DNA from: a virus
Virus record (IMG/VR): IMGVR_UViG_3300028027_000078
Coordinates: 1-49,458 of that record
Direction: 5' to 3' (one strand)
DNA: 49,458 nucleotides
Made by a program: the position numbers and the translations under genes. The notes under the pieces are model-generated. The model had not been told where the DNA came from and did no database searches. It saw only the letters and a list, made by a program, of their open reading frames with translations. Shown piece after piece: positions 34,104 to 40,742 of the stretch. Numbering within the stretch: the stretch's first letter is position 1; every line of letters starts with the position of its first letter.

Positions 34104-36983
34104 ATGGCAAATTCAAACAGAGTATTCGTTTCTCCAGGTGTCTACACATCTGAGAAGGATCTAACATTCGTAGCTCAAAGTGTCGGAGTAACAACATTGG
34201 GATTAGCAGGTGAAACCTTAAAGGGTCCCGCTTTTGAACCAATTTTAGTAGGAGACTTCGACGAATTCAAAACATATTTTGGTGGTACTTCTCCTGAAAA
34301 ATACGGAGACGGTTCTAATAACCCAAAATATGAATTACCTTACGTAGCTAAATCTTACTTACAAGAGTCAAATCAATTATTCGTAACAAGAGTACTTGGA
34401 TTGACTGGATATAATGCGGGTAAAACATTCGCAATAAAAACATTAGGTGGTATTTCACCAACAGGTGCAACTTGGGATGCAAGTTATAGTACATCAGGAA
34501 GTACCACTATGTCTGCAACAACTGCAACAATCACTGGAAGTACAATATATGGTGAGTTATCTGGTAAAACTTCAACAGAAGGTGTATCAATAACAAGTTA
34601 TATAGTTTCAAATTTTAGTGGGTTTACTACAACAGACGACGGTAAATGGTTTACAATAGGGTTAATGCCTTCAGGTGTAACATTACCTAGTACAACATTA
34701 GAAGTGGTGTCACCTTTAACAGGTAAACTATATAGTGAAACCCCTAATAATAAAGAATGGTATAATACTTTCTTCAATTCAGGAGCAACTATAAATCAAC
34801 TTTATTCATATAAATTTGCGTATAATTCAGGTGCAACTAGATTTGATGTTGTAAAATACACGTTTGGTGCTGAGGTAAATACTGATTACGATAACGTATC
34901 CGTATTAACATTAAGATCAAGAGGTCGTTACGCTTCAGAAGTATTAACTTATGAAGTAACAGGAACCACACAAGTTTCATTAGCAGAAGTTACAGATATT
35001 GAATTAAACCCATTAGGTGAATTCCAAATTAATGTAACAGGTTTAACAGGTGGTGCAAAATCATTTAATTGTACATTAGATACAACATCAACAAAATATG
35101 TTAAAAAAGTATTAGGTTCTGATGTATTTGATAAAACATATAGTGATTTTCCTCTTTATGTATACGAATCTTATCCTAATTTAGTTAAGGCGGCTTATGA
35201 AAGAGGTTTAATTAGAGGTTTAAGTACCACTAAAGTATTCAACGACGAAGGTTCTAACTTTATTGGTAAATGGTCAACATCTTTATCACCAATGGTGGTT
35301 TCAGAGGTTCGTGGTGGAAAAGTTTCCGATTTATTTGAAGTAATTACAATTTCAGACGGTGAAGGTTCTAACTATCAAGTTAAAATAACAGTTCAAAATA
35401 TTAATTTGGATTCAGGTGAATTTGATATTGTAGTTCGTGATTTTAACGATACAGATGACAATATGGTAGTTCTTGAAAAATATTCAAGATGTTCTATGAA
35501 TCCTGACATGCCAGGTTTTGTTGGTAGAAAAATAGGTACAGCGGACGGTGAGTATGAATTACGTTCAAAATACATAATGTTATCTTTGGCGGATAATCAT
35601 CCATCAGATGCATTCCCAGCTGGGTTTAAAGGATTCGTTAACAATGAAAACTTTAGTGGAACAACATTGGGTAGTGTTATTTATAAAACTGATTATAACG
35701 ATGCTGGCGATGTTGTAACATATAATGCAAATGGTACTGAAAATATCGAAGGTGGAGATAAAGTAAAGAAAGTAATGTTGGGATTATCGTCTCAAGTTGG
35801 TTTTGATAAAGATTTACTTAAATATAAAGGTACAAGTGGCACAACCGAAACTTTTGGTTTCCACTTATCTGTTAACGCGACCGATATCACAGGAACTACA
35901 TATCAATGTACACCTTACGATTTAGAAGGTACTTCAAAAGGAAAATTAGATAATATTGCATACCGTAAATTTACATTTGCAACAGGTGGTGGTACAGATG
36001 GTTGGGATATCTATAGAACATCTAGAACTAATACTGATTCTTATATTTTTGGTAAAACAACATATACTAATAATAGAACAAACGGAGCATATAGTGGGGT
36101 GTTTAGTCCTGATTCAGGTAATTCTGACTATTATGCTTACTTAGATGCTATTAACACATTTGCTAACCCTGAAGCGGTTGATATTAACGTATTTGCTACT
36201 CCGGGTATTAACTTCCGTGACCATAGTTCTTTAGTAAATCAAGCAATTGATATGATTGAGAATGATAGAGCAGATTCATTGTATATCATGAACTCTCCTA
36301 ACATTACAGGTACAACAGCAGCCGCTGACGTTGTTGGTGAATTAGATACCGTATCTATCGATTCTAACTATTCTGCAACATATTGGCCTTGGATTCAAGT
36401 AAGAGATACTGATAATGCAACTCAACTTTACATCCCACCAACAGGTGAGGTATTGAAGAATATCGCATTAACTGACAATGTTTCTTATCCTTGGTTCGCA
36501 GTTGCGGGTTATTCAAGAGGTTTGGTAAATGCAATTAAAGCAACCAAAAAATTAACTCTTGATGAGAGAGATGAATTATATAAGAATAGAATTAACCCAA
36601 TCGCAACATTCTCTGATACAGGTACAATTATTTGGGGTAACAAAACGTTACAAGTTAGAGAATCTGCACTTGATAGAATCAACGTAAGAAGATTGTTATT
36701 GAGAGCAAGAAAATTAATTTCTGCAGTTGCGGTTAGATTACTATTTGAACAAAATGATGAGCAAGTAAGACAAGAGTTCTTGAGATTAGTTAACCCTATC
36801 TTGGATTCAATTAAGAAAGAAAGAGGTTTGTACGAATTCAAAGTTACTGTTTCCAGCGACCCAGAAGATATTGATGCAAACACATTGAGAGGTAAAATCT
36901 ATATTAAACCTACTCGTTCTCTTGAATTTATTGATGTTGAATTTGTAATCACTCCGACAGGAGCTTCATTTGAGAATATCTAA
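34104..36983 (+). CDS. 18: Tail sheath protein (gp18-like)
   Basis: A 959-residue contractile sheath subunit, much longer than T4 gp18 (659 aa). The N-terminus (RVFVSPGVYTSEKDLTFVAQ, then a LGLAGETLKGPAFEPILVGD segment) is the hallmark of sheath proteins. The C-terminal domain is also diagnostic (YPWFAVAGYSRGLVNAIKAT, INVRRLLLRARKLISAVAVR, DANTLRGKIYIKPTRSLEFI); it forms the intersubunit handshake and binds the tube. The extra length lies at about 120-600, Thr/Ser/Gly-rich beta sequence likely to form surface-exposed domains. It is followed by a strong terminator and the unusual 340-bp intergenic region. Confidence 0.95.
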   Translation: MANSNRVFVSPGVYTSEKDLTFVAQSVGVTTLGLAGETLKGPAFEPILVGDFDEFKTYFGGTSPEKYGDGSNNPKYELPYVAKSYLQESNQLFVTRVLGLTGYNAGKTFAIKTLGGISPTGATWDASYSTSGSTTMSATTATITGSTIYGELSGKTSTEGVSITSYIVSNFSGFTTTDDGKWFTIGLMPSGVTLPSTTLEVVSPLTGKLYSETPNNKEWYNTFFNSGATINQLYSYKFAYNSGATRFDVVKYTFGAEVNTDYDNVSVLTLRSRGRYASEVLTYEVTGTTQVSLAEVTDIELNPLGEFQINVTGLTGGAKSFNCTLDTTSTKYVKKVLGSDVFDKTYSDFPLYVYESYPNLVKAAYERGLIRGLSTTKVFNDEGSNFIGKWSTSLSPMVVSEVRGGKVSDLFEVITISDGEGSNYQVKITVQNINLDSGEFDIVVRDFNDTDDNMVVLEKYSRCSMNPDMPGFVGRKIGTADGEYELRSKYIMLSLADNHPSDAFPAGFKGFVNNENFSGTTLGSVIYKTDYNDAGDVVTYNANGTENIEGGDKVKKVMLGLSSQVGFDKDLLKYKGTSGTTETFGFHLSVNATDITGTTYQCTPYDLEGTSKGKLDNIAYRKFTFATGGGTDGWDIYRTSRTNTDSYIFGKTTYTNNRTNGAYSGVFSPDSGNSDYYAYLDAINTFANPEAVDINVFATPGINFRDHSSLVNQAIDMIENDRADSLYIMNSPNITGTTAAADVVGELDTVSIDSNYSATYWPWIQVRDTDNATQLYIPPTGEVLKNIALTDNVSYPWFAVAGYSRGLVNAIKATKKLTLDERDELYKNRINPIATFSDTGTIIWGNKTLQVRESALDRINVRRLLLRARKLISAVAVRLLFEQNDEQVRQEFLRLVNPILDSIKKERGLYEFKVTVSSDPEDIDANTLRGKIYIKPTRSLEFIDVEFVITPTGASFENI

Positions 36984-37323: not shown

Positions 37324-37812
37324 ATGGCAGATTTACTAATGAAAATGCCGGTTCCTTACGAACCGAAAAGACAGAACAGATTTATTCTTAGATTCCCTTC
37401 ATCTTTGGGAATCAATGAGTGGTATGTTTCTTCAACAAAAAGACCTTCAGCTAAAATTAACTCAACAGAGATTCCTTTCTTGAATACTTCAACTTATGTT
37501 GCTGGTAGATTTACTTGGGAAGAAATGAGTGTTACTTTTAAAGACCCAATCGGTCCATCAGCTTCTCAAGCATTAATGGAATGGTTCCGTTTACACGCAG
37601 AATCAGTAACAGGTAGAATGGGATATGCTGCTGGGTACAAAAAAGACATTGAACTTGAAATGCTTGACCCAACGGGAGTCGTTGTTGAAAAATGGATTAT
37701 CCAAGGTTGTTTCTTAACAAGCTTAAACTTTGGTGATTTAGATTACAACAATGATGCTTTAGCTCAAATTACTTGTAACTTGAGAATGGACCGTTGTATT
37801 CAAGTATACTAA
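37324..37812 (+). CDS. 19: Tail tube protein (gp19-like)
   Basis: A 162-residue tube subunit, matching T4 gp19 (163 aa). Typical features are the N-terminal NRFILRFPSSLGINEWYVSS, the beta-hairpin RFTWEEMSVTFKDPIGPSAS, a VTGRMGYAAGYKKDIELEML segment and the closing strand LDYNNDALAQITCNLRMDRC. It polymerises to the tube inside the sheath and connects neck to baseplate. Both a late element and a terminator are private to this gene, consistent with high independent expression. Confidence 0.93.
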   Translation: MADLLMKMPVPYEPKRQNRFILRFPSSLGINEWYVSSTKRPSAKINSTEIPFLNTSTYVAGRFTWEEMSVTFKDPIGPSASQALMEWFRLHAESVTGRMGYAAGYKKDIELEMLDPTGVVVEKWIIQGCFLTSLNFGDLDYNNDALAQITCNLRMDRCIQVY

Positions 37813-37925: not shown

Positions 37926-38675
37926 ATGGAAGAATTTAGAATTGACCCCAACATTGCTTATGATGTAGTTGAATTACCTAGTAGAGGTATTCATTATGCA
38001 AACAATAAAAAATCGGCGAGAATCGCATATCTAACCGCGGCGGATGAAAATATCTTATCGTCCCCAAGTTTAATTGCAACTAACAAAGTTGTTGATGAAT
38101 TACTAAAAAGAAAAATTTTAGATAAAGATTTATCTATTGATGATATAGTTGAAGAAGATAGGCAAGCAATTTTAATATTTTTAAGGAATACCTCGTTTGG
38201 TAGTGATTATAAAGTTACATCAACAGACCCAAAAACAGGAGAACAGTTTGATTTTGAATTAGATTTATCAACATTAAAAACAAAGGACTTTACTTTAGTT
38301 GCGGATGCAAATGGTGAATATTCATATTTTATGGAAAAATCAAAATTGGATATAACATTTAAATTCATCTCCAAAAAACAAGAAAAAGAACTTGACCAAA
38401 TTAAAGATAGTTGGAATGGTAACGGAGTACCACCAATTATTACTAAACAACTTGAGATGATGATTAAATCGGTTGCAGGCAATAAAGACCTAATGAACAT
38501 TAGAAACTTTATTGAAAATATGCCAATCAAAGATTCACAAGATTTTAGAAAATTTATCAATGAAAATAAACCGGGGTTAGATTTAACCCAAACAGCAACC
38601 ACCCCGTCAGGAGACACAATCCAAGTTGAAATTGGATTCGGGGTTGAGTTTTTTCGTCCTTTCTACGGATTATAA
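37926..38675 (+). CDS. 26: gp26-like hub/tail-assembly protein
   Basis: A 249-residue protein resembling the T4 baseplate family that includes gp26. An N-terminal VELPSRGIHYANNKKSARIA strand is followed by LTAADENILSSPSLIATNKV, DELL, and an AILIFLRNTSFGSDYKVTST segment. T4 gp26 (208 aa) is a hub assembly component. Here the gene lies between tail tube and a tape-measure-like gene. In many tailed phages that slot is held by the tail-assembly chaperone pair produced by ribosomal frameshifting. Its 3' end contains TTTTTT in frame (38649-38654), and a second frame is open across the stop. Confidence 0.65.
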   Translation: MEEFRIDPNIAYDVVELPSRGIHYANNKKSARIAYLTAADENILSSPSLIATNKVVDELLKRKILDKDLSIDDIVEEDRQAILIFLRNTSFGSDYKVTSTDPKTGEQFDFELDLSTLKTKDFTLVADANGEYSYFMEKSKLDITFKFISKKQEKELDQIKDSWNGNGVPPIITKQLEMMIKSVAGNKDLMNIRNFIENMPIKDSQDFRKFINENKPGLDLTQTATTPSGDTIQVEIGFGVEFFRPFYGL

Positions 38676-38808
38676 AAAGGGACAGTTAGACGAGATTTTA
38701 TTTTTAGTTAAAAGGGGATTCTCATATGGAGATATCCTTTCTATGCCTGTATATATCAGACGTTATTATATACAATATTTAATATCATTAGAAAATGGAA
38801 ATAATTAA
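38626..38808 (+). CDS. Overlapping chaperone-type frame, probably reached by frameshift
   Basis: This frame overlaps the end of the gp26-like gene by 50 nt. It has no ATG from its upstream TAA (38584) until codon 41. The only early starts are TTG at 38626 and 38632. The conserved-looking part (LDEILFLVKRGFSYGDILSM, PVYIRRYYIQYL) begins after the overlap. A -2 slip (or +1) on TTTTTT at 38649-38654 would fuse it to the gp26-like protein to give about 294 residues. That is the arrangement of tail-assembly chaperones such as lambda G/GT. The alternative is a TTG-started 60-residue protein. The frame is clearly coding in character. Confidence 0.6.
   Translation: MKLDSGLSFFVLSTDYKKGQLDEILFLVKRGFSYGDILSMPVYIRRYYIQYLISLENGNN
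38649..38654 (+). promoter_or_regulatory. Candidate ribosomal frameshift site TTTTTT
   Basis: Two in-frame TTT codons (Phe-Phe) precede CGT in the gp26-like frame. Slipping back two bases continues as TTC GTC CTT TCT into the overlapping frame. The rest of the overlap offers no better slippery run. Confidence 0.45.
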
Positions 38809-38825: not shown

Positions 38826-40742
38826 ATGGGATTATTAAGCAGAATACCTAGTGGAATTACAAATGAAAGCGCTTTCAAAATTGCGTTTGCTGATGCGTAT
38901 CAAAAAGAATTTGGTAAAGCGTATAAGGGAGACAGCTCCGATGGGGCATCATTAGCAGGTACATGGAAGTTATATAATGAAAAATTAGGTACAACAAATA
39001 CGCCAGATATATCCAAACAAAATTTTGGAAATAAAGCTGTTGATTTTGTAAGAGGTACAATAGACACACAAAAAACACAAACATCACAATACTCCGAAGG
39101 TGAAATGTTTAGAATTAGTAATATGTTAGATATTATTAATAAAAAAGGACAAACTACTCAAGGAATAATGGGAATAGTTGGTAGATTGGTTGAAACCGCT
39201 GCTGGTGCAATAGAAACCCAATTAAAACAAGAAGCTCAATTAAGAACAGATATCAACGAAAAGGTTGGTATGCAAGGAGAGCTTTCAAAAGGTTTAAGAG
39301 AAGAAATTATAGATGCATATCCATCAACACTTAGATTAGGGTATGGAATGCAACAATTAACCGATATGATGACAAATATGATGTCAGAATCGGGTAGATT
39401 TAATCTTATATCAAAAGAAACGATAGGTCAAGCGGCGGCAACTGCAAGGTCCTTTGTTGGAGATTTAAGTGAAATGGGTAGAGTATTTGGTCAATTTGAA
39501 AAAGTTGGTCTTGGTGCTTCGGACGCAACAAAGGCTATTGATACTGCTGGTAAATCTTCATTGTCTTTAGGTTTGAATAGTAAAAAAACAACACAAGATT
39601 TAAGAGACAATTTAGGAAAATTAAATGAATTCGGATTTGCAAATGGTGTACAAGGATTAAATAGAATGGTTCAAAAGGCCAATGAATTTAGAATAAGTAT
39701 GGATTCTGTTTATCAAGTTGCTGATAAAGTTTTTAGTCCTGAAGGTGCGTTAGAATTAAGTGCAAATTTATCGGTATTGGGTGGTGCAATGGGAGACTTT
39801 GCGGACCCAATAAAATTAATGTACATGGCAACCAATAATGTGGAAGGATTACAAGATGCATTAATCGGTGCTGCAGGCTCATTAACCACATATAATCAAG
39901 AACAAGGTAGATTTGAAATTACAGGTGTTAACCTAAGAAAGGCCAAAGCAATGGCAAGTGAATTAGGAATATCGTATCAAGAATTAGCTAAAGGTGCAAT
40001 TGCTGCCTCTGAGAGATCTGCAGCCGCTAGTGCCCTAATGACAAGTGGATTGGTGATGGAAGATAAGGAAAGAGAATTTTTAACTAACTTATCACAAATG
40101 AAAGATGGTAAAATGGTTATTGAGGTTCCTAAATCTTTAATGAGTGAGTTAGGTGGACAAACAGAAGTTGTTTTAGAAGATTTAACAAATGCACAAAAAA
40201 CAACATTATTAGCAAACCAAAAGGCATTTGAAGAAATGTCCACACAAGATATTGCAAGAGGACAGTTAAGTGCAATGGAAAACATAGAAAGAGATATTGG
40301 ATTTATGGCTGCAACAGCAAGAAGTCGTGCGGTTAATATGGCTAAATCAGCAGCAGAAGCTGCTGGTTTAACAGGAGAAGATGCTCAGAAATTTGTTAAA
40401 GAAACTGCAGATGGATTTTCAAAAGGAACAATTCAAATGACCGACAACCTTAATAAGGTGGTTAGTAATTATATTGGAGAACTTAAAGGTGAAAAACCAA
40501 AAACTCAAGGTACTGCCACAACAGAAACAAGTGCAATGAATGTTGCTGAAGCAGAAAAGAAAGCTGCCGAAGCTAAACAGACTGCCGGAAATACAACAAA
40601 AGTTGTAAAGGTTGAAGTTTCGGCTAAATCATCTGAAGCATTAATGGATGGTTGGACTAGACAAATTATCAGAGACGCAAGTGTAAAGGAAGATTTTATA
40701 AACTCAGGTAACGACGAGTATACAACACCACCAAAAAACTAA
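38826..40742 (+). CDS. Tape-measure-like tail protein (gp29-type)
   Basis: A 638-residue, Ala/Met/Gly/Gln-rich protein that looks almost entirely helical from about 90 to 560 (for example GRLVETAAGAIETQLKQEAQ, SAAEAAGLTGEDAQKFVKET). It ends in an Ala/Lys/Thr linker and a helical tail. No enzymatic motif is seen. Size and helical character are close to T4 gp29 (590 aa), the tape measure and hub protein. It directly follows the tail tube and chaperone-type genes, as tape measures do. It has its own late-type element. The assignment is by context and composition. Confidence 0.62.
   Translation: MGLLSRIPSGITNESAFKIAFADAYQKEFGKAYKGDSSDGASLAGTWKLYNEKLGTTNTPDISKQNFGNKAVDFVRGTIDTQKTQTSQYSEGEMFRISNMLDIINKKGQTTQGIMGIVGRLVETAAGAIETQLKQEAQLRTDINEKVGMQGELSKGLREEIIDAYPSTLRLGYGMQQLTDMMTNMMSESGRFNLISKETIGQAAATARSFVGDLSEMGRVFGQFEKVGLGASDATKAIDTAGKSSLSLGLNSKKTTQDLRDNLGKLNEFGFANGVQGLNRMVQKANEFRISMDSVYQVADKVFSPEGALELSANLSVLGGAMGDFADPIKLMYMATNNVEGLQDALIGAAGSLTTYNQEQGRFEITGVNLRKAKAMASELGISYQELAKGAIAASERSAAASALMTSGLVMEDKEREFLTNLSQMKDGKMVIEVPKSLMSELGGQTEVVLEDLTNAQKTTLLANQKAFEEMSTQDIARGQLSAMENIERDIGFMAATARSRAVNMAKSAAEAAGLTGEDAQKFVKETADGFSKGTIQMTDNLNKVVSNYIGELKGEKPKTQGTATTETSAMNVAEAEKKAAEAKQTAGNTTKVVKVEVSAKSSEALMDGWTRQIIRDASVKEDFINSGNDEYTTPPKN

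Follow-up and report, generated by a model that had tools for sequence, protein, structure and literature searches.

The analyzed window covers positions 1–49,458 (49,458 bases) of the IMG/VR virus record IMGVR_UViG_3300028027_000078 and contains a gp26-like gene that belongs to the PF12322 / phrog_150 family (T4 gp26/gp51 family). Its ORF scored 41.9 bits against PF12322, above the curated cut-off of 24.5, and matched phrog_150 with an E-value of 8e-13; PF12322 was not detected in any of 14 control genomes. A sequence-only reading of this DNA had placed the gene between tail tube and tape measure. The tube side of this placement was confirmed by a profile match of the upstream neighbour (phrog_4542, E 3e-26), whereas the 638-aa protein on the other side had no database match and is assigned as tape measure by position only. 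In the relatives immuto, SP-15 and LIS04, a tape measure or large tail gene fills the corresponding place. The sheath protein of the window (34104–36983) is unusually long with 959 aa; its family domains are found only at residues 672–950, and the first 670 residues constitute an extra region. The coordinates of the features around the gp26-like gene are compiled in Table 1.

Table 1. Features at the gp26-like locus of the window.
Feature	Position	Strand	Basis
Tail tube protein (gp19-like), upstream neighbour of the gp26-like gene	37324..37812	+	phrog_4542 E 3e-26; PF06841 E 2e-6, just under cut-off
Putative short chaperone form, T4 gp26/gp51-type, 249 aa	37926..38675	+	PF12322, phrog_150, AF2 model
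GGGG run upstream of the slip codon, possible stimulator	38640..38643	+	GGG kept in 87/95 haplotypes
Predicted site of the +1 slip, UUU_C; Phe codon 243 (UUU) in the P site would re-pair with UUC	38652..38655	+	UUU in 95/95 haplotypes; all distant +1 relatives have UUU_C or UUU_U
Predicted A-site codon CGT (Arg CGN) adjoining the slip codon	38655..38657	+	CGN in 95/95 haplotypes vs 8.7% of Arg codons in gene bodies
Predicted +1-frame extension FVLSTDYKKGQLDEILFLVKRGFSYGDILSMPVYIRRYYIQYLISLENGNN, 51-residue three-helix domain	38653..38808	+	Conserved in all relatives; AF2 model; homology to gp51 C-terminus (profiles)
Zero-frame stop TAA ending the short form, seven codons past the slip codon	38673..38675	+	
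638-aa protein at the position expected for the tape measure gene	38826..40742	+	Position only

A second frame (38587–38808), displaced by +1 (equivalent to −2) relative to the gp26-like ORF, is open across the stop codon of the latter. That this frame is coding, as the sequence-only reading had proposed, is borne out by the conservation of the +1 domain in every relative whose sequence extends beyond the stop, far more than expected by chance; the −1 frame is not conserved in these relatives. The TTTTTT run that had been singled out is indeed in phase at 38649–38654 (Phe242-Phe243) and is followed by CGT. The count of codons up to the first ATG, which had been said not to occur before codon 41, had to be corrected: the first in-frame ATG (38743–38745) is codon 53 when counted from the upstream stop, and codon 40 when counted from the TTG at 38626, which is accompanied in the +1 frame of the window by further TTG codons at 38632 and 38644. 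Translation of 37926–38805 across a +1 shift yields a fusion product of 293 aa, for which the expected junction peptide is GVEFFVLSTDYK; a shift of the −2 type would give GVEFFFVLSTDYK.

Among the close relatives, 80 viral contigs with 71–100% protein identity that collapse into 26 distinct sequences around the stop, the +1 domain was present without exception (26/26) and no conserved −1 frame was detected. In about half of these 26 sequences, a TAG closes the +1 frame two codons before TTT TTC, so that the domain can be entered only at about GAR TTT TTT CGN. Another 80 loci, with identities down to 37–40%, came from a profile scan and contained the +1 domain wherever the contig continues (about 65 past the stop). 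Five contigs that end inside the domain were left out of the counts, including L009, which has a stop inside the domain, 12 bases before the contig end.

Codon statistics were calculated for 95 distinct haplotypes of the window clade, with the bodies of the same genes as background. The +1-frame domain was kept in 95/95 haplotypes, and all of them combine an in-phase UUU_CGN with a +1 frame that is open across the stop, whereas UUU_CG does not occur in frame anywhere else in these genes. The slip codon for Phe was always UUU, compared with 81% in the gene bodies, and the following Arg codon was always CGN, a rare codon in these genes that accounts for 8.7% of the Arg codons in the bodies. CGC in this position was found in 32 haplotypes but in none of 783 cases in the gene bodies; in the codon usage of the window, CGT, CGC and CGG make up 17.6%, 0.2% and 0.2%, respectively. 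No phage tRNAs bearing on CGN decoding were found within the window. At +3, Phe was encoded by UUC in 94 of the 95 haplotypes (19% in the bodies), because this codon is constrained in the +1 frame; the Phe codon at −5 is free (75 UUU, 18 UUC). The Pro codon was CCT in 88 haplotypes. The pattern was retained when one sequence was taken per cluster below 70% protein identity, with 51 UUU, 51 CGN and 50 UUC in 51 clusters.

In 21 of the 95 haplotypes, a stop closes the +1 frame 8 nt before the slip codon, and in 19 haplotypes the stretch from the preceding stop of the +1 frame up to the domain contains no ATG, GTG or TTG. The frozen zero-frame wobble positions downstream are second positions in the +1 frame, indicating that the +1 frame is translated from the slip site onwards, before any ATG. 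Together with the upstream stop in 21 haplotypes, these frozen wobbles leave the UUU codons as the sole entry that allows re-pairing. Of the features for which the sequence-only reading had suggested a comparative check, relatives keep the overlap but not always the T-run, which reads TTTTTT in 91 of 95 haplotypes and is absent in immuto, LR756508, GXN1 and BRock; ATG is lacking, together with GTG and TTG, in the 19 haplotypes mentioned. Upstream of the slip codon, Gly at −4 was encoded by GGG in 87 of 95 haplotypes, compared with 12% of the Gly codons in the bodies. Since the +1 frame is closed across this stretch in many members, dual coding does not explain the conservation of GGG, and the run in the window may act as a Shine-Dalgarno-like or other stimulator. 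No RNA structure that could stimulate the shift was detected 3' of the slip codon (z −0.37).

The sequence-only reading had left open whether a −2 or a +1 slip on the T-run leads into the second frame; the +1 part stood and the −2 part did not. Re-pairing from UUU to UUC or UUU in the +1 direction is possible in every member, whereas re-pairing two bases back is impossible in haplotypes L031, L095, L164 and L167 (TTC TTT CGN) and also fails in immuto (AGC TTT CTT), LR756508 (AAC TTT CTA), GXN1 (TTC TTT CGT) and BRock (CTG TTT CGC), where without T6 the tRNA would have to pair with non-Phe codons. We consider the direction of the shift settled as +1, judging by the pairings that the sequences allow, with UUU_C as the key element and the T6 run as incidental. 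Shifts of −2 are known in Mu-type chaperones, and most haplotypes including the window offer the T6 run on which tRNA-Phe could move back by two bases, but a −2 shift would assign no role to the conservation of CGN, and we rejected it as highly improbable, as its P-site re-pairing is not possible in all members. Loss of one base by the RNA polymerase on the same run, a homopolymer of 6 in most members, would be a transcriptional route into the frame. The run is short and variable, being interrupted in TTC TTT haplotypes and reduced to TTTC in immuto, and slippage would leave the bias for CGN unexplained, so that this explanation was rejected as well and appears extremely improbable.

Alternatively, the small domain could be a separate protein that is started inside the gp26 gene and coupled to gp26 termination. 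The TTG codons in the +1 frame of the window could serve as starts, some haplotypes contain an ATG just before the stop, a few codons past the slip codon, and annotators do call the domain as an ORF of 37, 40 or 78 aa. A TAATG-coupled separate gene exists in one distant relative, LR756511; within the window clade, an ATG-started separate gene was not found. The candidate ATG reads ACG or TCT in most haplotypes, the +1 frame already constrains the codons that precede it (CCT TTC), and 19 of the 95 haplotypes lack ATG, GTG and TTG altogether in the relevant interval. Moreover, the same domain follows a canonical −1 heptamer in jumbo phages and cyanophages. Independent initiation is thus very unlikely, and the programmed frameshift in the T4-type gp26 gene that the sequence-only reading had proposed is strongly supported by the conserved +1 frame, the slip site and the haplotypes without starts.

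For structure prediction, the short form and the extension were folded separately as plain translations. AlphaFold2 predicted the extension as a three-helix bundle (pLDDT 90.8; helices 2–20, 25–30 and 33–49) and gave a model of the short form with a pLDDT of 88.8. In profile comparisons, the +1 domain matched the −1 domains of cyanophages (Prob 86–92, E 5e-6 to 5e-7) and of jumbo phages (Prob 94, E 1e-7) as well as the C-terminus of T4 gp51 (Prob 74–81, E about 1e-5), and the cyanophage −1 domain matched the gp51 C-terminus with an E-value of 2e-10, whereas control comparisons with other parts of the same proteins gave E-values of 0.2 or more. These profiles indicate homology between the +1 extension and the C-terminal part of gp51 from T4. 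A fold search with the small domain returned nothing significant in the viral library or the PDB, and an assignment of the extension to DUF6760 or P2 GpE was discarded, as there was no Pfam or PHROG match; the P2 E' profile aligned in register but not significantly (E 0.034). According to its model, the short form shares its fold with members of the PF12322 / phrog_150 family: a Foldseek search of the viral library retrieved a hub subunit of SP-15 (TM 0.74) and gp26 of Aeromonas phage 25 (E 2e-5). Among solved structures, the top VIA-align row was the HK97 tail assembly chaperone 2OB9 (Z 4.9 over 83 residues at 4.2 Å, which is below the trusted level; the next row had 2.4), and Foldseek alone gave an E-value of 3.5 for this pair. 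This resemblance of the modeled short form is suggestive but not a proof.

The +1 frame is also kept in the named phages Flavobacterium immuto, Microcystis Mel-JY01, LR756508, Streptococcus GXN1, Bacillus SP-15, Listeria LIS04 and Streptomyces BRock and in seven bacterial MAG contigs, mainly from Flavobacteriales. UUU_CGN is always used within the window clade; the distant +1 relatives have UUU_C or UUU_U at the slip site, so that the constant element is a UUU in phase with C (or U) as the next base. In other members of the family, ribosomes appear to enter this domain through −1 shifting at U_UUU_UUY, as suggested by the sequences. These members are cyanophage S-RIM50 and 50 distinct marine loci, in which TTTTTTC is invariant and located one or two codons before the stop, and the jumbo phages Atu_ph07 and PA5oct (TTTTTTC) and XacN1 and RAS14 (TTTTTTT). 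In S-RIM50 (L209:4720–4857), a 45-aa ORF is annotated as 'gp51 baseplate hub assembly catalyst', and the same applies to many marine contigs (L213–L292). This cyanophage ORF is most likely the −1 frame extension of gp26 and not a gene of its own. In the huge phage LR756511 (L206, around 3238), the frameshift seems to have been replaced by a separate, coupled gene, as a TAATG overlapping the stop of gp26 provides the small domain with an ATG.

T4 and other Straboviridae carry two PF12322 genes, gp26 and gp51. These genes are divergent in T4 but adjacent and in tandem on one strand in the Pseudotevenvirus EC-F2 (L202:2501–3794), an arrangement that may represent an older state of the gp26/gp51 duplication. 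In a tree built from 62 short forms, members cluster by their way of delivering the extension, with three changes, which is the minimum possible. The T4 duplicates adjoin the cyanophage −1 group (support 99), and the +1 members and the jumbo-phage −1 members are on the other side; BRock forms a long branch with unsure placement. On balance, we favor the view that a single chaperone family obtains the same C-terminal domain in several ways (+1 shifting at UUU_CGN, −1 shifting at U_UUU_UUY, a separate coupled gene, or gene duplication combined with fusion), that its tree contains three or more switches between these modes, and that UUU_CGN, with GGGG upstream as stimulator, is a conserved +1 signal in bacterial phages.

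Sequence conservation points to a short and a long form generated by a shift near the 3' end of the gene, and from the sequences the gp26-like gene very probably encodes a tail assembly chaperone in two forms, of 249 aa and, after a +1 shift, of 293 aa. Most ribosomes would terminate at 38675 and release the short form. At UUU_CGU (38652–38657), with the rare Arg codon pending in the A site, peptidyl-tRNA-Phe would move one base ahead and exchange its pairing with UUU for one with UUC; a single tRNA-Phe isoacceptor would read both Phe codons. A minority of ribosomes would then continue in the +1 frame and produce the long form with its three-helix C-terminal domain. By analogy with lambda G/GT, many copies of the short form might coat the tape measure protein and few copies of the long form might recruit tube subunits. 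We infer the shift in the cell, its efficiency, the chaperone function and its partners; support at the sequence level comes from the conserved +1 frame, the slip site, the absent starts, the predicted domain fold and the homology to gp51.

Instead of being a chaperone, the extended protein could be a structural part of the baseplate hub. Both PF12322 and phrog_150 are named after the baseplate or baseplate hub, and some work on T4 placed gp26 in the hub (PMC3004832). However, T4 gp51 is required yet missing from the particle, and gp26 and gp51 are listed as hub assembly chaperones (PMC3004832). The position of the window gene between the tube gene and the tape measure place and the combination of a short with a frame-shifted long form, a hallmark of tail chaperones, also argue against a hub component, as does the identification of T4 gp26/gp51 as tail chaperones in 2022, as cited in PMC10885494. 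We therefore regard a structural hub role as unlikely and favor the tail assembly chaperone. The connection of gp26 to the tail chaperones that the sequence-only reading had drawn is thereby supported; for T4 itself it had already been published (Vladimirov et al., 2022, as cited in PMC10885494).

No report of the +1 UUU_CGN branch was found in the open literature searched, a search that did not extend to Vladimirov et al. (2022). This branch thus appears to be the new element, whereas chaperones gp26/gp51 of T4 and poly-T −1 signals were already known. By these data, gp26/gp51 of T4 represent a duplicated state within a family that continues to frameshift in its other branches, and the family would have changed the direction of the shift while the product stayed the same. 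The reason for a chaperone in two forms thereby becomes testable, as their ratio could be set by +1 shifting, −1 shifting or gene dosage. The annotation of many phages can be corrected, as it omits the long form and lists the extension as a hypothetical protein of 37–78 aa or a 45-aa 'gp51'. Being conserved over dozens of bacterial phage lineages, the UUU_CGN site may also be a good model for +1 shifting outside prfB.

In T4, gp26 and gp51 were described as short and fused long tail assembly chaperones (Vladimirov et al., 2022, Virology 566:9–15, as cited in PMC10885494). Like the window gene, they belong to the PF12322 family and provide a short and a long form, and the C-terminus of gp51 shares homology with the +1 domain. 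T4 relies on a pair of paralogous genes without frameshifting, whereas the window has one gene and a predicted +1 shift; gp26 and gp51 of T4 would correspond to the short and the long form, each encoded by one of the duplicates. The cyanophage gp26 (Kyanoviridae, e.g. S-RIM50) shares the family, the extension domain and a predicted shift near the stop, but the shift is −1 at U_UUU_UUC, invariant in 50 distinct loci, instead of +1 at UUU_CGN. Poly-T −1 signals in TAC genes of T4-like phages are cited as known in PMC12846349.

Lambda G/GT and P2 E/E+E' occupy a gene place that the window gene probably shares and make, as predicted here, a short major and a frame-shifted minor product with a small C-terminal addition, but by a −1 shift, and homology to the window gene was not found at the sequence level (P2 E' profile, see above). 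In the lambda model, the short form coats the tape measure and the long form recruits tube subunits, and a 2016 review described G-T frameshifting as conserved in long-tailed phages 'except T4' (PMC5009743). A weak fold resemblance of the modeled short form is limited to the chaperone of HK97. The tail chaperone of the haloarchaeal myovirus HSTV-2 very likely also depends on a +1 shift (PMC5009743) and contains UUU_CGC close to where its short form ends, comparable to the UUU_CGU of the window gene, but it belongs to another protein family that was not matched by PF12322 or phrog_150. The motif UUU_CGN was shown to direct +1 shifting in influenza A PA-X and was proposed to do so in amalgaviruses; in that work, CGN is described as rare among Arg codons, and one tRNA-Phe decodes both UUU and UUC (PMC5052127). 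Motif and direction are identical to those predicted for the window, although these are unrelated genes of eukaryotic RNA viruses and the window derives from a bacterial DNA phage.
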